Source: Undaria pinnatifida | Taxonomy: Eukaryota > Sar > Phaeophyceae > Laminariales > Alariaceae | Direction of reading: 5' to 3' | Length of the DNA: 64,000 bases | Assembly: GCA_012845835.1 (NCBI GenBank) | Contig: JABAKD010000028.1 | Coordinates: forward strand, 5,552,296 to 5,616,295 | Part shown: positions 6,201-48,200 of the stretch, piece by piece | Numbering within the stretch: position 1 is the first letter of the stretch | How the letters are laid out: the number at the start of each line of letters is the position of its first letter | Program-made: the position numbers and the translations under genes | The notes under the pieces: generated by a model | What the model was told of the DNA's origin: nothing | What the model saw: only the letters and a program-made list of their open reading frames with translations | Database searches by the model: none

Positions 6201-9200
6201 CCGGACGACCCGTCCAATGGCTGGCTGCTCCGGCTGCTGGGGGTAAGCAAGGAGACAGAACAACAGCGCTTTTTTTAGAAAATCATAGTGCCACTAACTT
6301 TTAAGTTTTTGTTGTTGTCATAACTGTAAATATTGCCGAGTGCCTGGTACCAGGTATCTGGTTGACTGTTGTCAGAGCTCCTGCTGCTGGGGGTGAGTGA
6401 GACAGAGCAGCAGCGTTTGTTGCTGTTGTCATGCCGCCGAAAAATTCAGATTTAGTAAACATCTGATTCGCTGGTTTTTCAGAGCAGTGGCGGACCCGCC
6501 ACATAGTCTGCCCTAGAAGCAGGTCGGCTTCATGAGAAAAGTTCTTGCCCCGGCTGCCTATCTGTTTGGTCGAGGGTGGCCAATCGGCCGCTCGTTTTGA
6601 TTGTCAAGCGCCACCATAGCCCGCTCTGGACCCGCGCGGCCGCCGTTGTTAACCTCGGTCCCCCCAAAGGCTTAATATTAGGGTTAGGGTTGAGGTTGTT
6701 AGGGATTAGCTCTGGGACGACGTCCAATGTTGCATTTGGCCACAGGCCACCTGCAGGATTTTTTGTATTTTATAAAAATTGAAAAACGTCGGCTGTGAGT
6801 ACGAACGATTGGATGGTTGAAACTCGACTTTGCAAGCTGCGTGGTACAACTGTGTTTCGCTGATACACAGTAGTAGTGGCACAGAATTTACGGAAGGTCG
6901 TTCGCACGTGTTATATATTTGACCCTCATGAAAGATATAGGTCGGTGACTCCCCTGTGTTGTAGGGCCATAATTTAAGGCGAACCATCGGTCGTGTCTCT
7001 CTCGATCATTGTTGGTGGCGTATTTGCCACGGTGTGTGCGCATTTCCTCCTATGAGGGAGAAGCTGCTGGCGCCAGCAGGCAGCGCTGGTGGATGGCTCA
7101 GCCTCGTTTTGCTGTTAATGTTTGAGGGCTGCCGTATGTCTTTGCGAAGCAGTTTTGCCGATCGTGTTAACTAGTGGCTGCTCCAAGTGTTTAGGGGCTC
7201 TTCTAAGTAGTTAGGCCTATGGGTGCCCTCGTAGCTGTGAACCTCCTGTCGCCTCGTGGGTGGGTCGAGCTCTATTGCGCCGATCGCGTTCGTAGAGGTC
7301 CCAACGTGGTACCAAGTAGGTTCATAAGATGTGACCACGTCAGAGGTTGTGCGGCTACATGAAAACCAGTAGATGTCGCAAACAAACCCAAGAAGTTGTG
7401 ACTTTCATGTGGTCACAAGGTGTTAGGAGCTTTCAGGAAGCTGTGAGTGTTGTGAGACTTGCATGTAAGGGCGTGGCTTTTTCTGGCGCGGCAATCGTAG
7501 CTTTTTGCTGGCCCAACCTGACAGACACGCGTATACTTTGGTGTTGGGCGGTCCGGTACAAATGCGTAGCTGCGTTTTGTTCGCGATGGCTACGCGGCAC
7601 CCACTTCCAGCAATCGACAGATAGGAAGGACCCCGAACCTTTGTCCGCAAGAAACCAGAGTAATTTTCTGAGAACGAAAATTCGGCGGAATATGTGGTGT
7701 AAGGTAACCGTTTTCATGAGTGTGCTGTTGCTTTGTTTTGGTGTGATGCTGTGGGATATGTAGTACGCGTACATAGGCGTTATACCGATTGGTGATTTGG
7801 CGCTCACTTTATTTCTTGCTGCTGCTGCTGTTCCCGTCGATGCACAGTTCATCCAGCAAGCGGTGGTTGCGCGGGGGCGGGGGCGAAGCTACCGTTCGGC
7901 CGGAAACGACACGGTTGACTCGGCGACGGGCGAGAGAGAGCGCGCGTGCCTTGCACATCTGGCGCACGTCGTGTTCAAGGACGAGCTTGTGCTTGCTGGT
8001 GCTAAGATAAGGTGAGAAGGAAAAAATCGAGTTTGTTTTTACGTGTGTTGCTTGTGGCTGGGTAGCGCGTGCTGCTTCTGCTGCGGTGTGATATTGTTAC
8101 TACTCGCGTGCGTCCTTGTGTGTTTCGCACCAAACGGTAAGACCAGACAGACAGGCATAATCGAAAAGCTGAAACTGCGATTTGTGTAGGGGACCTGGAC
8201 CTACCAGAAATGAAAAAAAGATATACCAGAGGACGTGGATGCACATATGTGCCCGTGTGGGAAAACACTAAAGAGTAGGACTCACATGGTAGGACAATGT
8301 GAAATATACAAGAGGGAACGAGTTGTGTTAGAGGAGACGAAGAAATTAGACGAATGTGATATGGAAGAGTTTGGTAGACTAGAACGTAGGGGGAAAACGA
8401 TCGCTATCCTAGGAGATAGATGGTGGCCACAGATGGCGAAACAGGACGGGGATAGGATAAGCAAATAGTTTTTATTTACTATACATGGAAAAAGCGTATT
8501 GAGCGCCCAAATGTTGGAGATGCCTATTTTAAGAGTAGGAACGTTTCTCCGTCTCGAAAGGGATGCATGGCCAATGGTCAAAGGACTAAGGCAAGCAACA
8601 AATGAGCACCCCCCCCCCCCCCCCCCCCCTTATATTATCGCATGCAAAAACAGCCGATTGGTCGGCGCGGCCCACCTGTTCGCGGCGAGAGCCTTTATTT
8701 TCGTCGTTGCGGCCTACCCTATCTTATCATGTTCAAGTTCTGCTGCCGCCACCATCCCCCACCTTATGACGTGACAAAACAGCCGATTGCTTCACGTGGC
8801 CTACCTGTCCGCGACGAGAGCTATCTTCGACGCCTTTCCAGCCTACCCCACCTTGCCTTGTGCAAAGTCCCCCCCCCCCCCCCCATCTTATCGCGTGCAA
8901 AACCAGCCGATTGGTCCGCGCGGCCTTCCTGTCTGCAGCGAGAACCATAATTGACGCATTTCCGGCCTACTCCATCTCACCGTATGCCAAACTTCCCCCT
9001 GTCCTCTTCCCCCTCCCTCATACTCTCGCGTGCGAAACCAGTGGATTGTTTCGTGGGGCTCACCTGTTAGTGACGGGAGCTCTCTTGGACATCTTTCCGG
9101 CCTACTCCATCTTGTCGCATGGATCCCCCCCCCCCCTCCCCGTCACCCATCTTGTCGCATGCAAAACCCGCCGATTGGTCCGGGCGGCGCACCTGTCCGC

Positions 9201-12200
9201 GGCTCGGGCCATCTTCGACGCCTTCCCGGCCTACTTCGTCTTATTGCATGCTAAGTCTACCCCCCCCTCCCCTCCCCTCCTCCCCCTCCCCCTCTCTCCT
9301 CTTATCGGATGCAAAACCAGCCGATTGGCCCGCGCGGCTCACCTCTCCGCCGCTCGGGCTATCTTCGACGCCTTCCCGGACGCGAGCCTCCGCGACGATT
9401 TTGCCGCATGCGTTTTCTCAGGAACGAGGGATGTTGACTCGGGAGTTCGATCAATCGCGGCGGAGGCCACCCGAGTGCTTTTTCGCCGCTTCCTCCCGGG
9501 AAAACACCAAGCCATTTTCGCGACGATTGTGGCCAAGCTGCCGCCCGTGGTGGTGGTCGACGGCGAGGGGGAAGAAGAGGGGGAAGATGAGGATGGCACC
9601 GGTGGAAGTGTGAAGGCGGCGGTGGTGGCGTCTGAACGGGCCTATGCTAAGCTGTCGAGCCGTAGGTCCGACAATGAGCGCAGGTGGGGTTTACGGGGGG
9701 AGGGGCGAAATGTGTGTAGGGGGGGAGAGTGTGACGGAGGGGGGGGGTAGGGGAGGGGGCGGCCATGTATGGTGGGATGTGTTTGTTGTCGTGCATGGAC
9801 GTAATCTTTAGACCGTAGACCCTCGCAGGCGGTAAGGCGGGGAGGGGCGCAAAGTGGATTGGAGCGGAGGGGGTCGCGAGGTAGGGGTGGGGTTTTGGCG
9901 AAAGGGGGATAGGGGAGGAGGAGGCGGTGGGGTTTCGGTGTGAGGGGTGGGGATTCTGATATTGTGGGGCTACTCAATGGTGTGTTGATTGAGTTTGCCT
10001 TCGGGCGTGTTATGGTTTAAACTTCTCCCCCGCTCCTCCCCCCCCTCTAACCTTCCCCCCCCCCGCTCCGGCCCCCGTCCACCGATGTATATATATAATA
10101 GTTGGCCTCGGTTGGCACTGACGCTGTAAAACGTTGTATGTATATTGGAGTTGTCGTTGGTTGGCAACAGTTCTGTAAAACATGTCAATCACTGCGTGAG
10201 CTAGACAACCAGGGTACCATTTTTTTTTTTTCTTGGCGGTCACCATGATGGTTATCGAGTTGGATAATATTTTGCGGGGTGGAGAACCCTAACTCCGCAC
10301 AAGGGGAATGATCGCATCACGTAGTGTGAATTTGGTGAGCCCCCCGCGACGCGGTTACATATTAATACCCATTACTGTCTCTGGAGCGACCACGCCAGAA
10401 AACAAAGTAACTCGTTGGCGCTGTCATCCCTGGCAAGAAAGTAGGCACAAGGTGCCGAAAGCCCGTCCTAGGAGCGGTTCTTTGAAGGATGCAGTTCACC
10501 CTTCATGCGACTCGCCGAACACCTCACGGCGCTTCCCGCTTGGTGCAAGCAATATCTGACTGGTTGGTAAAGACCCGACGTGCTCCGTCCCGGCACAGTA
10601 GGGATGCGAGGGTCTACGGTCATACGACTACGGCCGTTCACAAACTGAGTACACCCCCCCCCCACCCCCCCCCTCCGGCCCACGTTTTTCCCTCCTCTTC
10701 TCCCTCCTTCGATAAGGTACTTCGTGGTCGGTCGTCGAGAGCTCGAGGCCACCTCCCTGGCCACAGTGGCGGACATGGCTGTTTCCAGTCCTAGAGTTAC
10801 CCGGGCGGCCCTGTTCCACCTCTTGCGGCGCTTTGTCAGGCCGGAACTCGCCGCTGCCATTCGGCGACTGATCGAGCGACTGGCGGTCAGGCTGGGGTTT
10901 GCTTCGGGTCCCGCGCTCCTGAGGCAAGGAGTTGCCTTGCGTTTTTTTTTGCTATTTGCATTTTTCCCTTGGGGCAGGGGGGGTGGGTCATAGCTAAACG
11001 AACCCCCAAAGAAGATCAAGTGTTTTAATGATATCACGACTCGCGACGAAACGTATTGAAACGTAGCTCTGTATGCTTGTACTTTTTTTTTTTCGTTTTG
11101 CTCATCCCTTCTATTGTTGTGTGCATTTTTCCTTTCCCTTTTCCCCTCCCTAGACGTATCGCGGATCCAGGGTTACCAAGCAGCCTCTGCTATCCCCTCC
11201 CCGCTACGGTGCTTGCCTTCTTTTATATCTCGGGAAGATTCCAGTTGTTCCTCCCCTCGCAGACTCGCACCGAAGTGTGCCTGCCCACGCTTCTAGGCGG
11301 TCTCAGCGGTTGATTTACCAGGCTCGAGGATAACCTGATACGCTACCGGGGCGACCGGTACTGGAGCACACTGAACCCTAACCTCTAGATGAGAGTTTCG
11401 ATGTTAGCCACAACCTGCAGCTCGGTACTCCGCTTCCTGGTTGACCTTCGCTTAATTGAAGTCGCAGCTATCATAACTACTGTCGTGTACTTTGGACTTT
11501 TTGCGAATGAGCTCAAGGGTCAAAACCCACGTGGGAGTTTTACCTGGTAGGCGATACCTCGTTTGGGACCCAGGTACAGTATCGCCGCCTGCAAGGTGGG
11601 AAGTGCGGTCTTACCTTACTTTCGGGAAAGAGCGTGCAGCAGGCAACCGTGCAGATTTTTAATGTGCTGCCTCGCGTGTCGTGTTGAATCTCCTCACGCC
11701 GCTCGCTCTCCTGGCACGTTCCCCCCCCCATAGACTTGCCCTGCCACAGACACCTGCTTCGGTAGAGGTGGCCGTTTTAACCCTTTTAGCAGCGCACTCC
11801 CGATATGGGGACACAATACTTGGAATTAGACTACGATAATACTAGGAGTTGGAGAAGGGTTAACGGGACGCATGGTTTCTGCATGACGGGCTCCTTTCTC
11901 AGCTAGAGTAGCTACCTAAATATATACTATATATTGGAACCCCGTTTGTGTTTCCTGTAGTATTCGTTCTCTGCATTACGGATCGCTTAATGGAAGTGTT
12001 GAATTGGATGAGGCTTCCTGCGCCGGCCGGATCCCCTACGCCAGTTTTGTGTTTCCTAATCCATTTGCTGTGCACCTACTATAGCCCATGGGATTTGTCC
12101 ATCGAAGTTAGCCCTTTTTCAGCACCGCAGTCCCGCCATGGGGATGAAGCACTGGAGTTAGGCTACGAAAATTGTAGGAGCTGGAAGTGAGTTAAGTGAA

Positions 12201-15200
12201 CAATGTAGACAAAGCGAGTCTTGGGTGAGGATTTTTGGGGGAAAATGATGTCCACCTGTATCGTAACGTATATATATATATACCCGAACACTTCGTATGG
12301 TACACACGTGAAAAAAACACCCGAACAAACGCATAGAAAGGAAGCTCCCACGAAAGAATGAAAACATAAAAAAAAAGTGTTACTCGTCGTCTGCCGTCCA
12401 ACATGCATGCGCGGGGCGGCGCTTCGACAGCACACGGTCCAACCAGAAATACACAACATAGAAAAATAACCCGAACAAACACAAAAAAAGGAAGTTTCCA
12501 CGAAAGAATGAACACATAAAAAAAAGAGTTACTCGTCGTATGCCGTCCAACATGCATGCGCGGGGCGGCGCTTCGACAGCACACGGTCCAACCAGAAATA
12601 CACAACATAGAAAAAGAACAGAAAAAAAAACGGGGGACGATGTCGTAACATGCGCGTCCCTAGTAGTGCGTGCTGTTTCGGCGAGGCCGATTCTGCATTC
12701 GTCACTAATGTTCGCCAGTGTTTTTTCCTCTGAATATCAAAAGGGGTTGTATGAAACACTGCCGTGTGCAATGCGCTTTTACTGTTATTGCAGTACTCTT
12801 CTCCGTGTATATATATATATATATATATTTTTTTACGCACAATTGGGAAGTATAGCATAGATAACGGAGATTTTCTTGTGTACTTTCTAATATCGTCGAG
12901 CATATATAGTGTTGCGAGCACATGGGATAGTATAGCGTAGAAAACAGAGATGTCAAAAATAGAAGTTTTTAGTGTCGTCGAGCCTATATAATTTTACAAG
13001 GGTGTGTTCGGTGCGGTACCGGTATTCTCGGTACCGGTATTGATGTCATATCGAACTCACCGAGGTGTCTGGTACCGGTATTGGCGTCGTACCGAACTTA
13101 CCGAAGTGTCCGGTACCGGTATTGGAGGTGTACCGAACTTACCGAAGTGTCCGGCACCGGTACGAAAGAATGTTACCGGCATTGATGCCATACCGAATTT
13201 ATCGAAGTTTTCGGTACCGGTATTGATATTGTACCGAACTTACCGAAGTTTCCGGTACCGGTATTGACGTCGTACCGAACTTACCGAAGTTTTCGGCACC
13301 GGTATTGATGTCGTACCGAACTTTTACCGAAGCGTCCGGTACCGTAACGAAAGTCTGTATCGGTACCGGTACCAGTACCGGCACACACTTGAATACATAT
13401 ACCGCAGTACCGGCGGTATATACCGCCGGCAAGGTACCGACGCACGCTTGCCCTTGGGCACAAAGGCTGGACATAAACTGGCGGTACATGTACAGACCAA
13501 ATCCGGTATTGGCCGGGGGTACCCGCTGAGGTATTTAATTTAAGTGAGATATAATTTGTTTTTATATTTTCAATATTTTTCTCTCATTTGATCTTGGTCT
13601 TGATATGCTGTTCAAAAGGTAAGGTACCCTTTGGATTATCAGCAGGGCGCCGTCTTCTCGTCGATCGTTTCGACGTACACGCCAATCGAGTACGTAAATG
13701 AGGCTTTTACGCGTCCCTTACCTTCGAAAACCGGCCGGCACCGGGAAACCATCGACGGCTTTGATCGTCTCCGCCGGCAACTCGTACGCGTCTCCCGTGA
13801 GCGAGTTGTACACTGTCTGGAGCCTAAGCTCCAAAGGATGACGTCACAATGTGGTGAAATCGGGTTGATATCGTGCCAAACGTACCGAAGTGTCCGGTAC
13901 CGGGTTGATGTTGTGCCGATCTCACCGAGGTGTCCGGTACCGGTATTGATGTCGTACCGAACTCACCGAAGTTTCCGGTACCGGTATTGATAGCGTACCG
14001 AACTTACCGAAATGTCCGGTACCGGTATTGACGTCGTACCGAACTTGCCGAAGCGTCCGGTTTCGGTACGAAAGTCTGTACCGGCACCGCCGGTACCGTT
14101 ATTGATGTCGTACCGAACTTACCGAAGTGGTATTGATGTCGTACCGAACTTACCGAAGTTTCCGGTACCGGTATTGACGCCGTACCGAACTTACCGAAGT
14201 GGTAATACCGGCGGTACATACCGCCGGTGCGCCTCAGCATGTACCGCACCGAACACACCTTTGTAATTTCACGAACATACCAGGTATGGCATGGTGTAGC
14301 GTAGAAAACGGAGATTTCTTTTAAAATAGTACTTCTTAATATCGTCGAGCTTTTGTTGCGGTACTTGTTTTTTTCGCCGGAATCTCACCCCGACAAAGCG
14401 CTCTTTTGGTCAGTAGAGTCGTAGGGTAGGGTAGGCGCTAGTTTAGAGTTCAGGTCAGGATTTAGGCTAGGGTTTGGCCGTGTTTAAATATGCCTCCTCT
14501 CATATTATTGGGATCACACGGCAGCCACACGACATTCCCCGCAGCCCATACTAATAAGCTATCACCTTTATAGTGTTTTTTACAAATTGGGCTCTCTTGT
14601 TGCCTACGAGTATGCTTGCTGGCACTTTCGTTCCCTATCCCTCAGGGAGCACTTGATGTTTTTCATGTCAAAGTGGCTAAACGGTCGGCCGTCTCTGGGC
14701 GGATTTCCTTTCGAACTTCTGCGGCATGCTCAAGCGAATGGGGACCGGGGAGACGCGCTTCGAGCGTGCGCGCACGTCGCGGTTCCGCTCGCGGTGGTTC
14801 AGGTATATTAAATGCGTCTTGTCTCCAGATTGTTTTTTTTGTTTTTCTTTGCTTTTGTTTTCCTTATGGGCTGCCGAAAGGGTTAATCAATGCCAACCTC
14901 CGTCCACCCACGAAGCGACCGACGCTGTCGAAGATTCAGCTGAAACGTGTGCTCTGCGTATGACCCATGGTCAACATCTCCCGTAGGCCTACGCCGTTGC
15001 TGCCGCATGTATGTGCTGTATGATGTGTATAAACACGAGCGGTTTCGACCAAATTCTTGACCTAACAGCTAGGGCGTGTGTGGTTTAAACTATGGATGTT
15101 GCAGTTGTCCCCTAAGGAGCGTCTGAGAGAGGTGCAGACCATGGCGGGAGAGATGGGATTGGGCGCCACGGACAACGGTGTCGCCCGCCTCGTCAGACTG

Positions 15201-18200
15201 CACGTCGCCGACATCAAGGTGAGGTGGTCCGTTCGAACGGCCAGACAGGTAGACGTATCATAGATCATAGCTGTATGATCCTAGCTACCTCTTTTTTTCT
15301 TTCTTTTTCCTTTTTGCTCATCCCATCTGTTATCTTCGAACTTTATCTTTCTCTTTCTCCTTCCCCAGACGAAACTCAGATCCAGGGTCACTAACGAGGC
15401 TCTTCTCCCCCCCCCCCCCCCCCATCCCCACTGCGGTACGTGCCTTCGATTGTAACACGAGAATACACGAGCCCTTTCTTCCGTCATGGACCCGAATCGA
15501 ATTGTCTCTTCTTGGTGGGAAAATTCTCTTGCTGCGTTTTCTCTGTACTTTTTTTTTTCCGATCATGCATATCGTGACAGTGGTGCACCTGAGGCTTTTG
15601 AAGCGTCTCACGTGAGGAGGAGCTCTCTAAAGCGTACCCAACGACCGACCTCGAGATTGTGTACGTAATTTAATGAGCAGTCCCACGGCCTACGGTAAAG
15701 GTACACCTCTTTTTTTTTCTTGTTTTTTTGGCGCTCCTTCACTTAAGAACCGCCGTATCTCACCTCCAATTTTTTTTTTGGGACTAAAGCTGAACGTGAA
15801 ATCCGACGTCCAAAACCCATGGCCCAAGCCTAAAAACAATAGTGTTGCTGTAAATCAAGAATGCCATTCCGACGATTTTTGGTCAAGGAGCCGCGTCATC
15901 CAGAAAATACCCCTCCCTCCCCCGCCGCAAATGCTACGTCTATCGTAGCACGCGTCTATCGGAGATGAATATGAGGTGCAACTTGATGGGCAGACCCTGG
16001 GTGCGGTCGCGGTGTCATTTGTCGGGCCTGTTTTCGAAGAGGCTCCGGGTCACTGGTGCGAGCGACCCACCCCCTAACCCCCCTTTCCTTTTGCGGTCCC
16101 TTTAAAGCTCAAAAATCCCTTATACTAACTTCAAGTAAGTTTGCCCGTGTTTCCCAGTTGTAAAGACGTTATCCTTTCGTGATTTTTTTTTTTTGCCATG
16201 TGAAACCTCCGTGGAATGGTTAGCCACGCTGGACCAAAAAATAACCGCCGAAAGTTTTTTTTCGTTGAGGTACAGAGTCACTCGGGCGAGTACGTCATAC
16301 CAAGTAGTGAATAAAGGGTTACCCCTTCCCTACCGTCAGCCGTGGTCAGCATCAGTCGTCAGTCCCACCGCCTATGCATAGGAACAACACGAAAGTTGTG
16401 GAGCTGAGTTAACGTGAGAACGGCAACAACAAGTGTAAGCCACTTTTGGTATTCGAACGGTATTGGAGTATTAGTATGTGCCTTGTGGAGCTCCGCCCCG
16501 TCAGTGTTTAAAACATGGTCAAAGCATGCCTACCTTCTTCGCCTATGGCAGCACGCGTCACGCTGACAGCCCATCAAAGACGAGGGACGAGCCCAAGGTT
16601 TTGCGATCCCTTCTTAAATAAACTACCTGGTAGAATTTATCTGCGTGACGCTCGATCTCCCGAGACGATTTGTGCTCTTATTGACCCGATCAATAGCCCA
16701 GTCTCCCATTTTACGAGGAACCTTGAGTAATCAGAATCCACGTCAAGCGCACGAAAAACTGTACACTTCTCTCTGTTTTTTTCTAGCTATACTTCGTTCT
16801 GGCTTCTATTGTTTGTCCCCTCTGTGTTGTTTGTATCACGGATCATATGGATACATACTAACAGTGTTCCACCGGCATTTGGTACAGTATGTTACTTGAG
16901 GAGCCGCGTCAGTCTTAAGAGAAGGCCGAAAATGCTTAACTATCCCTATCGTGATGCATGTCCAACACGCTAGCGATTTTCGCGCCCTTGTTTGTGCGCG
17001 GCGCTGCTGCAGGCGGTGTACCTTCCCCTGCTGTACACGGAGAGCGAGGATGGTGTTGATGAGGACAGACAAGTGGCCAACGAGGCGGATGGTTTTTTGC
17101 AGAGGTGATGACTTTTTTTTTGTTTTGTTTTGTTTGGATTGGTTTGGTTTGGTTTGGTTTGGTTTGGTTTGGTTTGGTTTGGTTTGGTTTGGTTTGGTTT
17201 GGTTTGGTTTGGTTTGGCTTTGGTTCAACTTTGGTTTGGCTTTGGTTTGGTTTGGTTTGGTTTGGTTTAACTTTGGTTTGGCTTGGTTTGATGTGGTTTG
17301 GTTTGGGCTGGATTGGTTTTATTTGGTTTGGTTTGGTCTGGTTTGGTTTGGTTTGGTTTAGTTTGGTTTGGTTTGGTTTGGTTTGGTTTGGTTTGGTTTG
17401 GTTTGGTTTGGTTTGGTTTGGTTTGGTTTGGTTTGGTTTGGTTTGGTTTGGCTTGGTTTGGTTTACGTATGTTTGGTTTCGTTAGGCCTTGCTGGTTTAG
17501 ATTTGTGTTGTTGGTTGTAGTTTGGTTTGCCTCGTGGTTGGTACGCGCTATCTATCTATGGTGCAGTTTTTCGCTACTTTATTTTCGGGTGGCATTTTTT
17601 TTATTGTGTGTTGTTGCTTTCGGGTGCCTCGTCTGTTTTGCTGGCGCATGGGCTGTCTTCTGCGCTTGCGCAACAGGGGGAATCGCGATGCGTTCTTATT
17701 CGTATTTTCTACGCTTGTCTCAGCATTGTACGTTTTTGCGTGTTGTGTTGCCTCTTGCGTCTCGGCTTTTTGCGGGACCGGTACGGTTTTTGTCCACATC
17801 TTGTTTGCTCTTTGCTTGGTTTTGAAGTGGTACATGCGAGAGAGAACATTTGTCACCAACACGAAATAACCTGAACGATCAGCCTCATTGCCACAAACAT
17901 ATGGCTGCCGCAGCGAGCGACACACACGGCAAGCAGCTGCAGCGGTCTTGTACTGCACGGCTGCTGCGACGAAGCTAGGTCAAGTGGCAGACACTGCCGC
18001 GACAAGGTGGGGCGAAGAACCGCTTATTCAACCGCGTGTGTGGTACAGCACAGCAGTAGTACACCAAGCCAAGCCCCCCTCACCGATGGCCGTCACGCTT
18101 GGCCGCGTGCGCTGTTCGCCCTCCTCGCACCTCCTCACACTTGCTCTGTTCTCATCCTAACTTTGGCACGCCCGCGCGAAGGGTCATCGACGGGGGTAAG

Positions 18201-27200: not shown

Positions 27201-30200
27201 TTTTGTTCACTCCAGACGGAAAGGGTTTGAAAGCACGCCATGGCGCACGGCCAAACAAAATGGTAACTAACCACCGACTTGTCTCTGCACAGACCATTAG
27301 ATATTCGGCGTATACTGTGGGCAACTATTTGAGCAAACAAACTCCAAGATTTCACACACTTATGTATACGTGCCAGGCATGTATGGTTCGGTCGATATGG
27401 CTCGGGGTGTCTAGTGATGACACAGTTGTACATCCGTATCGAGGGCTGCCCAGGCTATGCGTCCTATCATCAACCGGGCTGCCTTTCCCGCGCTGCCTAG
27501 TATGTAGCAGGTTCTTGGAAGATTTTCCATCGGGAACGTGCGTCACCATCCCGGCGACCAGGGCTAAAGAGACGCACGCACGAATAGCTACCACGTGCCT
27601 TATACACAACTTCGTCCCCCTTACACGAAGTCTGTACACTCGTACACTTGTTTGCGTGTTTTTCTCACGCATCGACTGCTTTACTGTGTCGTCTCTCTGA
27701 ATCCCGTAACTAAATCAATTACCCGTATATTTATTACCCCCTCGCCACGAACAAACAATTCATTACATATAAAGTAACCCTCCCCTTAGGTACACCCGAA
27801 GCGTACCCTTGATGTCTGCCTGCCTCCCTCCCCTCCCGACCCCGCCCCCACTTGTACCCACCCAAACCCGAATCGCTTTTCCGATTTGTCGTGCAAAACG
27901 ACATGGCGGCGGACAACAATGACAACGTCAACAGATGGGGGGGGTTGGGTCCTGACTCATCCGTCAGTAAAAGCGCCTCCAGCAGCCTCGAAGACCCGCT
28001 TTCGGGGCCGAAGCTGCAGGCCCTTCGCCTGGTGGCGAGCTATCTCATGGATCGCGATGAAGGGCTTTCGGAGTGGTGAGTTATTTCCCGAGGAAACAGC
28101 AGGCGCGTTGTATGATAGGGGGCTCCCCGCGTTTTTTGGGGTCCTTGCTTAAGGCGCTGTGTACCTCACTTCAAAGTTGACATGGAGAAAATTGTCGATC
28201 GGAAGCGTTTGGGGGAAAAAAACGCCACCCTTGCGTCGCAGCACGTCGGCAGCGCATCCTCTGTCCCGCCACAGGACGGTACAACATTTGGTCGTGCAGT
28301 CATGCATGGTACAGCAGTAGCTGGTGTGGTAGTATGTGGTACAACAATACATGGTACAGCAGCAGCGGGAGAGGTAGTATGTGGTGCATCAGTAGGTTGT
28401 GTACCTGTAGGTGATACGTCGGTAGATGGTACCTGGTGCATCGGTAGGAAATATCCATAGCATAGTGAGGGGGTGGTACAGCAATAGGTGGTATATTAAT
28501 AGGTGGTACACCAGTAGGCGGTAGTAGTGCGCCAGTAGGCGGTGCACCAGGTAGGAGGTATCACAGCAGTGGGTGGTGCACCAGCAGGTGCCGCAGCAGT
28601 GGCTGGCAGGAAGCCGCGCGCGCGTTTGAGTCGCGGATGCCGTGGTATGTTCGGTCGACCACCGTGCACTATAAGCCGCGGTGATTGTTTGTACAGTACG
28701 TATTTTTGCTGGGATACACACACTGATGGATGTATTCGGTGGAGGTACCTAGCTGGTGATAGCAACTGTGCGAATGTGTTGGCTGATGGGCAGACAACAC
28801 CGTCGAACGAAACTTGGTCACCGCTGCTCGTCCAACCCCATCCCGCACCACCTTGCCCCACGCCACCCCCCCCCACCCCGACCCACCCCACCCAATCCCA
28901 CCCCACCCCACGCCACCCCACCCTACCCCAACCCACCCCACGCCATGCCATCCCACCCCACCCCACCCCACCCCACCCACCGCACTCCACCCCACTCCAC
29001 CCCACTCCACCCCACCCCACCCCACCCCAACCTACCCCACCCCCCATCCCACCCCACCCCACCCCACCCCAACCCAACCCAACCTAACCCAACCCAACCC
29101 AACCCAACCCAACCCAACCCAACCCAACCCAACCCAACCCAACCCAACCCAACCCAACCCAACCCAACCCAACCCAACCCAACCCAACCCAACCCAACCC
29201 AACCCAACCCAACCCAACCAAACCCAACCCAACCCAACCCAACCCACCTCCCCCGCCCCGCTCTCCGTTCCCTTCTCCGCCTACCCAATCCCTTGACCCC
29301 CAAGCGCGCTGTGCACGGCCAAGGCTCTGCTTTCTCGACCGGACACGAACGACCGCCTCCTGAAGGCCAGCTCCTTCGAAGTCCAGGCTCTGCTCCAGCC
29401 TTTCACAGCAAGGTTGGCCCAGATGAACACCGTTCGCACTGCCTTGCGCGTGTGGAACGGCCTATTCGGTAGCGCTTGCGCTAGTAACACTGGCGGCGGT
29501 GGCAGCGAAACTGCGGGAGTAGTAGCTACAGGAGGAGGGAGTGCCGCGGGGGAGGTGGGAGGGGTGGAAACCGCGGGCTCGGCTATGTCGTTCGAGGTCT
29601 GGACGACATCAAGTGCGTACGTCGTCGTCGTCGTCGTTGTTGTTAGTCCCCCGGCGGATGGGTTAATGAAGCTTAAGTAAAGTATAATCACCACGCTTCC
29701 ACGTGTGTGTCGTGTGCCAATCCAACTCGGTTGCCGAAACATCGACGTTGTTAAGGTTGTAAAGTTCACGGCGGGTGTCGGTCGTGCCTCTGACCGTGTA
29801 TCATTGAGGTGAAAGGGGCTGCTAGGCTGATCGGGGGCAACAGTTGTGGTCGTTTGTGTGCTTGTCTCAAGAATTGTCTGGGGGGGGCGATAAATGGCGT
29901 ATGGGCTCGGGTGGGAACTGGGGTAAGGTGCGAAGCCACCCCAACCCGCATGACACAACCCCACCCTACCCCACCCCACCCGACCCCAACCACCAGACTT
30001 TCTCTGGGGGCGTTTCTTTGTTTGCATGGCGAGTGATCGACTCCCGGCATATCTATGTATAGCTCGTGCGACAGCTGCATTCTTCGTTGACGTTGCCGTA
30101 GCGGGTCGAAATACTATCGCCGCGAATGCCTTGTAACTAAGAGTGCAACACCACGGCGAATGTTGCCGTTCGTTCTTGCCAGAATCCCGTCGCCCCTTGG

Positions 30201-45200: not shown

Positions 45201-48200
45201 GGGACGGCGGGTCGCGTTTTGCCCGGGGTCGTGACACGACCTCCCTCTATCCGACCAGACGCGGATTATCGGTCAATGCCAACCATCGCGGGGTTCCAGG
45301 GGTCCTTTTCCATCACCGAGAGGTGGGGGTGGGGGTGGGGGTGGGGGTCGTGTGCGTGAGCTGATAGCACGAGTCGTTTTTCTGTTCGTTTGTGTAGATG
45401 AAGAGCCGCACTCTAAAGCCCAAACCTTTACACGATATCGTAGCTGGCGGAGACTCAGTTAAAGAGATGCCCAATAAAATTTCGGATCTGATTTTTGTTT
45501 CACACGAAGCTTCGGTAGACCCCTAAGCTTGCGTTTTTGGGCTTCTCTTGCGTTTTTGTTTGCTTGGAAAAAAGAAAGCCAGTTGTTGGGTGATGTGTGG
45601 GGTTCCTCGGGCGAGGATGCTCAGAAGTTTAGGTGCTTCTCCTGCTGTAGAAAGCGGGGGAAGACGGCTAAGGCTATACGGTAGGGGGAGCTACCCCCCT
45701 TTCCATCGCCGAGTTTAGGGTGCGAGGTTGCGCCCAAGACCGGGCCGCACAATACCTTGTGGGCGCAAGCATAACAAAACATTCGGTGGCCGTGCGTATC
45801 GTGAGATTAGGCGTCACATCGAAATGATACGTAGCCGCTCGCGAGCTCTCCCGAGTGACTCTCTTGGGCCTGAGAAAAGAGACCCTCGAAGTGAACTCCC
45901 CACGGTAGCCGTGGTCAGGCGGGCTGTAGAAGGGGCGGTTTGCTCCTCGCTGTGGTTGTCGTATGCGTGATATGCAGGAGGGAGAGGGAAAGGGGAAGGG
46001 GGAGGTATACTTATTTCGTGCATAGCTGTAGTCATATGACCATAGACCCTCCCATCCTTACAATGCCGGGACGGAGCACGTCGGGTTTCTATCGACGAGG
46101 TAGACATCGCGTGCAGCAAGCGCGAAGCGCCGTGAGGTGCTGGGTGGGACGCATGAAGGGGGGCAGGTTTTCTCAGACTCGAATGTGTGTTCGTTTGGTC
46201 GTCTGTGGTCTTTCGGGGGATGCACCGTGTGACGCACCTTGATTGTTTTTTCATGTTTGTGTTTGCGGTCGGCAGGCTTAACGCTTGCCTGCTCGCTTCA
46301 ATTCAGCGTTATTGTTGGTCCGTATGTTGACGTTTGTGTCACCTCTGTTGAGTTGATGCGTCGATCGGTGAACTGCAAAATGTTTTTACCCCCTCGTTAT
46401 TGCTCCGTTTAATACTTTCTCTCAATGGAATGCTTCCAGCGGCCTCCATCGGCCGAAGATCGTGCACTGCGACGACTCGGCGGGCGAGCGCTGCCGCCAG
46501 CTGGTGAAGGGAGCGGACGACATCCGACAGGATGCCGTTATGGAGCAGGCGAGAAAATCGTCTTACTTTTTCCCGCGAGGTCGAGCGAAGTGATCATCGT
46601 GCTAACTGACGTTGACGCGCTTTTTTGTTTGCCCGACGTGTGTAGCCGTGGTATGCACGGCGCTTCGAAGCTGAGCCGGCTGGTCTATGGGTTGAGCTAC
46701 GTACTTGTGTGCAGTATTGCCCATGGTCTATGGTGTTATACGGGCAGACGATGGTGTTGTGAGTGCTCCAACAAGGACAACAACAAGGATATCCCCCTTC
46801 CTCACGCGTTCGCCACCCCTCCCCCCTTGACGCCTTCGTCCTGTTGCCCTTCCCGATAATTTCTTCCCCCCCTTCTTGGCCGCCAATATTTTGCTTTTTG
46901 ACACGAAGACCAGGTGTTTGCCACGGTGAATTCCTTCCTGCGAGAAGACCCGGCGGCCAGAAAACGGCGGCTACGCGTGTTCACCTACACGATAATACCA
47001 CTGTCGCCGGACTCAGGGGTGCTGGAGTGGGTGGAAGACACGATGCCCTTCGGCTCGTTTCTTACAGATCGAGGCTCGGGGAGGGCGGGGGCTCACCGAC
47101 GGTACTTTCCAAAGGACTGGTGCGTGGTTTCGATGAATTTTGGCTCTGCACATACATTAAACATAGTAAATATCGATGTTGTTGATGATGCTATATGTGA
47201 ATTCGGACCAAGGGTGGAAATATATGGTGTTGCACGCTCAGTACTGCTTGCTGCTGCCACGACATACCGCTTAGTAGATACCGCGTCTGCTGCTCCACTA
47301 CCATCACGACGGACGGGCGCTGCTGTTGCTGCCGATGCTGCTGCCGCCGCGGGTGCCGCACGAACGTACCAGTACTGGGGTGGGAACGATGGGTGGTCGA
47401 CCGTATGCCCGCTGCTTGATGCCTGCTGCTGCTGTTGTTGTAGAAGTCGACGTAGGTAGGCGATAGTGTGAGGTGAAATATGTGCTGAGATGTACGGGTC
47501 ACGCGAAAGTGGAGGCGTTGTCGAGATGTTCTGGGCGGTAATAATGGCAGTGGGTCGAAAATTAGGGCACGTGGCCTGGGGTACCCCACTGGTCACCCAC
47601 CGCCCCCTCCCCTTTCCCCGTCACTCAAGTAATTCGGAGCTGTCATCCAAACGCAAGAAAACATGCGCAAGGTGCCGAAGTCCGCCTCACAGGTGTTCTT
47701 AGTAGGATGCAGCTTACCATTAATGCGACTCGCGTAACACCTCACAGCGCTTTGCGCTTGGTGCACGGGATATCTGCCTGGTCGCTGGAAATCCGACGTG
47801 CTCCGTCATGGTATTGTGGGGATGGGAGGGTCTATGGCCACACGCCTGCGGCTATGCATGAAATAGGTACACCCCCCCCCGAAAGCGACCGGGCAACATG
47901 CCATTGATTAACAGTTGAGAGCATTTACCGGAGACAACAGAGATTGAAATGGTGCCAGGTGGTAGCATCTTTGGCTTTTGAGAGCGTCGTCTTCTGTGCA
48001 TGGCCGAGATTCCTTGCGCAGTGTGCTTGGCTAAAGACATTCCGATCGTTTCTTTTTCTTTGCCTCTTGTGCCTGAGCGCTCTTTTTTTGTTTTCGGGCA
48101 CGTGCCCTATATCTTCTTGCTCGACGGTGTACCTGGTATGCAATAGCCAGCCTTCGACGTCCCGATGGAAACTGGTGCTGGTCCTTTCGCGCGGGATTTT

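Follow-up and report, generated by a model that had tools for sequence, protein, structure and literature searches.

The window (the whole stretch of DNA analysed, 64,000 nucleotides from Undaria pinnatifida) carries a gene that is, judged by its predicted protein, ATM-like. Pfam identifies a PI3K-like kinase domain with a FATC end in the 3' part of the window, and the best matches of this part in PDB are to ATM (E 2.8e-57), the closest member of that family. A rough coding scan finds further plus-strand coding segments up to about 52 kb, which probably form one gene with exon 6. The peptide of exons 5 and 6 finds no ATM match in PDB at E up to 10, and its resemblance to a segment of human ATM is weak: the score of the whole peptide is reached by 208 of 2000 shuffles and that of its core by 46 of 2000. 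With exon 6 as the query, tblastn found no relatives in viral contigs and prokaryote genome contigs, as is to be expected of a eukaryote gene.

Both exons lie on the plus strand. Exon 5 is borne by an open stretch at 7764..8011, within which its true start is not fixed; the coding score begins at 7836, and the donor, GTGAGA, is at 8012. The 248 bases of the stretch leave 2 over, matching the phase of the acceptor at 9321. Exon 6 (9321..9684), recognized by its coding score, is open, in phase with exon 5, and followed by a donor GT at 9685.

Six tandem copies at the acceptor of exon 6

The initial annotation saw six tandem copies at this acceptor, and a mechanical repeat finder recovers all six (its family D2): a unit of 105 nt at 8608-9379, with spacings of 129, 124, 135, 129, and 150. 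An alignment z of 19.8 puts the repeat far outside what chance would give. Each unit consists of a C-rich tract, a short sequence near ATCTTATCGCATGCAAAACCAG, and then about 60 bases resembling the start of exon 6. The tail that follows the FP codons (GCCTAC...) is common to units 1-5, and unit 6 continues instead into the remainder of exon 6. The copies span both the end of the intron and the start of the exon, the mark of a tandem duplication of an intron-exon boundary.

The exon-like parts begin at 8654, 8783, 8907, 9042, 9171, and 9321, positions that agree with those given before save for the first, which had been put at 8653. An acceptor sequence had also been said to recur from unit to unit. 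This holds for a 20-mer around GCAAAACCAG, which, with up to three mismatches, matches four times in the 64 kb (units 1, 3, 5, and 6) against 0.01 expected by chance, but the exact decamer GCAAAACCAG is confined to units 3 and 6, and units 1, 2, 4, and 5 have variants of it.

All six units read on the plus strand. Unit 1 (8608..8736) has a pure C-tract and an AG at 8652-8653. Unit 2 (8737..8860) follows it, and use of either as an acceptor leads to a stop. Unit 3 (8861..8995) and unit 4 (8996..9124) have kept their AG, and their exon-like parts are in frame with exon 6, 414 and 279 bases upstream of it, unit 4 being strongly diverged. Unit 5 (9125..9274) is the nearest in sequence to unit 6 and has lost its acceptor, with CG for AG. 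The intron end of unit 6 (9275..9320) is a C/T tract and the acceptor AG at 9319-9320.

C-tracts are hard to sequence, and misassembly across them might be suspected of having made the copies. The exon-like parts differ pairwise by 12-38%, hence they are not one sequence counted repeatedly, and an error of assembly is extremely improbable.

Directly before unit 1 lies a degraded stretch (8179-8606) containing an open frame at 8214-8468 (CPCGKTLKSRTHMVGQCE...). It has no Pfam match and looks like the C-terminal end of a retroelement protein. A search for a target-site duplication around the stretch turned up only a 7-base match.

Candidate acceptors and the open frame

Could the upstream acceptors be used? 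The spacings of units 3 to 6 are multiples of three, as had been noted, and so is that of units 1 and 2, making four of the five; that of units 2 and 3 (124) is not. The acceptors at 8907, 9042, and 9321 do share a phase, and exon 5 joined to 8907 or 9042 reads through without a stop, in phase, to give 138 or 93 additional residues. Joined to 8654 or 8783, it is cut short by stops at codons 123 and 140 of the resulting frame. The AG is intact in four of the five upstream units (1-4); its loss from unit 5 was already recognized in the initial annotation. The AG-free stretches upstream of the acceptors run from 37 to 97 bases, and a branch-like YTNAY stands 15-20 bases 5' of the AG in units 1-4 and 6, while the stretch scanned in unit 5 has none. 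Use of 8907 and 9042 is thus possible on paper. Donor-like sites in the array, by the few patterns tested, number two (GTATG at 8982 and GTGGGG at 9053), and a scan of 8601-9321 for AGGT found none.

One view, then, is that some transcripts use 8907 and 9042 and that ATM thereby gains repeated helix-like sequence with a proline-rich linker. The common phase, the lack of stops, the AG, the C-rich tract, and the branch-like motif all agree with it, yet it is unlikely, for reasons that begin with the open frame itself. The frame, said to be open from 8860 through the end of exon 6, in fact reaches back further and lacks stops from 8770 to 9747. Among random sequences matched to the part of the array concerned, a given frame is open in 18-19% under Markov models of order 2 and order 3, and in about 6% under order 1. 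If three units decay neutrally, by substitution alone, at 0.2-0.3 changes per site, all remain open in 12-22% of simulations (16-22% at 0.20-0.25). The open frame needs no function at such rates; it is not clearly unusual, and I set it aside as evidence of function.

The paucity of gaps outside the tracts was likewise considered as a sign of selection for frame and set aside, since control blocks disagree. Pairs among units 1-5 show 8 gap events at 287 mismatches in their non-tract parts. Counted over pairs whose lengths differ by at most 12 bases, two 41-bp control blocks in the window show 0 gaps at 68 mismatches and 5 at 41, and a 149-bp pair shows 2 at 12.

Divergence and probable decay of the copies

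Coding constraint on the extra modules should be visible in the kinds of changes they carry. Over 19 codons compared with the majority consensus (in which codon 13 is a three-to-three tie), nonsynonymous to synonymous changes in units 1-6 number 9:3, 5:2, 4:6, 11.5:3.5, 0:7, and 1:7, where neutrality predicts a nonsynonymous share of 0.68. The nonsynonymous count of unit 1 is inflated, because its best alignment to a consensus contains a +3/-3 gap pair. Units 1, 2, and 4 pooled fit neutrality (P 0.81). Unit 4 is contained in both of the longer products, so its change as neutral DNA, together with the lost acceptor of unit 5, weighs against the use of 8907 and 9042; the synonymous lean of unit 3 favors it and is borderline (P 0.064).

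Units 5 and 6 are a different matter. A tree joins them at a support of 94%, against 51% and 60% for its remaining groupings, and the branch leading to them, read by eye from the column table, carries 10 or 11 changes in the 19 codons, 1 of them nonsynonymous and 9 or 10 synonymous (P 8.8e-5 for 1 of 11). Of the seven changes of unit 5, four are common to unit 6 and probably arose in the exon before copying, two clearly belong to unit 5 itself, and the seventh is at the tied codon 13; with two changes of its own in 19 codons, the test of constraint on unit 5 is uninformative. Clear coding selection is seen in the last one or two units only, which favors decay over working alternative splice sites. 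A history in which units 1+2 were copied as a dimer into 3+4 was also tried and is not resolved by the informative sites (7 versus 5 and 5).

A further view is that the upstream acceptors act as decoys, competing with 9321 and lowering or tuning ATM output. The output would be affected because splicing to 8654 or 8783 ends the frame prematurely, and units 1 and 2 do keep their AG. Against this, conservation of the acceptor region does not clearly exceed that of its surroundings: units 1-5 differ pairwise by a mean of 0.255 over the 22 bases that precede the exon-like part, 0.305 within that part, and 0.317 over the 24 bases that follow. All three parts (acceptor, exon-like, and linker) have diverged to much the same degree, the first slightly less, and none stands out as held back. 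Decay accounts for the same facts, and a role as decoys is very unlikely.

I propose that the 3' end of intron 5 (C-tract, branch-like sequence, and AG) was duplicated in tandem, together with about 60 bases of exon 6, several times over, probably through slippage or unequal exchange aided by the C-tracts. The last copy alone would still be joined to the remainder of exon 6 and would serve as the working acceptor. The upstream copies would now be intron sequence in decay, unit 5 being probably the youngest, and splicing would be expected to use 9321 only or nearly so. This account, duplication across the boundary followed by decay with unit 6 at work, is very probably correct. The initial annotation offered a choice between a ladder of in-frame acceptors and decaying decoys. 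Decay is supported (units 1, 2, and 4 neutral, unit 5 without its AG, units 1 and 2 out of frame), while the ladder has little to back it. What speaks against decay is that all spacings but one are multiples of three, that four of five upstream AGs are intact, that unit 3 leans synonymous, that under an order-1 model so open a frame is less expected, that the pattern of units 5 and 6 comes from so few changes, that the count of unit 1 is inflated, and that gaps are few outside the tracts. The more specific idea, that 8907 and 9042 are chosen according to tissue or stage and so place their extra residues in the N-terminal part of ATM as length isoforms, is quite unlikely.

Tandem arrays elsewhere and related systems

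How exceptional is such an array? Both ends of 18 approximate exons (36 tests) were compared with 1500 bases of flank, the exons being 17 of the 31 segments from the coding scan plus one at 46902 from the Pfam search; 14 segments were dropped for overlapping frames or low complexity, and the placing of exon bounds was partly manual. The start of exon 6 is the sole strong case of such copies. Two ends reach a loose flag at z 3.5, the start of 44174 (in its upstream flank) and the end of 51353 (at 51994, downstream), where the resemblance is perhaps low complexity; two further ends, at 3.4 and 3.2, do not reach the flag. In the 511 Mb genome (68 contigs), a search with 8990-9400 that skips simple repeats and scores the best candidates only returns this locus and a 30-base C/T tract on another contig.

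Tandem arrays of other sequence are common. In 200 kb, taken as 20 stretches of 10 kb that are not random over the genome (15 from contig C35 and 5 from C30, one of the latter around the 30-base match), 38 diverged arrays with periods of 70-320 were found in 15 stretches, most of them counted without a check for more than two copies. Each of three Markov-shuffled versions of these stretches yielded 0 arrays. In 12 of the 38 there is a tract of seven or more C or G. Together with five from the window, they make 43 arrays in 29 groups; 23 groups have a single member, and some of the others turn up at several places and look dispersed. One group with C or G tracts is present at three places (L006 574-1011, L020 701-1108, and L023 3279-4255) and another at five (L011 6074, L014 6831, L020 384, L022 7026, and L023 2944); in the six arrays of these two groups that were printed, the tracts lie between the copies. 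Copies spaced by C-tracts therefore recur outside the ATM gene. Judged by its frequency in the sample, local duplication in tandem is usual here, sometimes with C-tracts separating the copies, and that one array should straddle an acceptor is then not very surprising. The window itself also holds a 41-bp minisatellite (CGGTACCGGTATTG...) in two blocks at 13029-14204 and long pentanucleotide arrays at 738-1135, 17118-17483, and 28856-29259 (GTTGG, TTTGG, and CCCCA).

The array shows clearly how a tandem duplication over an intron-exon boundary lays down extra in-phase acceptors, from which longer isoforms might be built, and how copies of this kind seem to decay. Should they work as a ladder, a DNA damage kinase would be gaining its length variants in an unusual way.

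Several same-phase acceptors before one exon are familiar from tandem alternative acceptors of the NAGNAG type. The likeness extends to the arrangement; here the spacing is 124-150 bases, and the upstream acceptors are candidates only. The Rogers/Hellsten model, as described in PMC4974935, has introns gained by duplication of an exon piece bearing AGGT. It shares with the present case the supply of splice sites by tandem duplication, but 8601-9321 lacks AGGT, and the piece duplicated is partly intronic. The nearest published case found, in the literature on duplicated acceptors and intron gain, appears to be the potato RdRp gene, with its tandem genomic duplication across an intron-exon boundary (PMC4974935). 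As that account presents it, one duplication led to a new intron with a recruited donor, and RNA reads stand behind it, whereas the array described here has six old copies, its two donor-like sites by the patterns tested, and no sign of a new intron. What the two share is the piece itself: in both, the 3' end of an intron was duplicated with the 5' end of the next exon, and polypyrimidine tract, putative branch site, and acceptor went with it.
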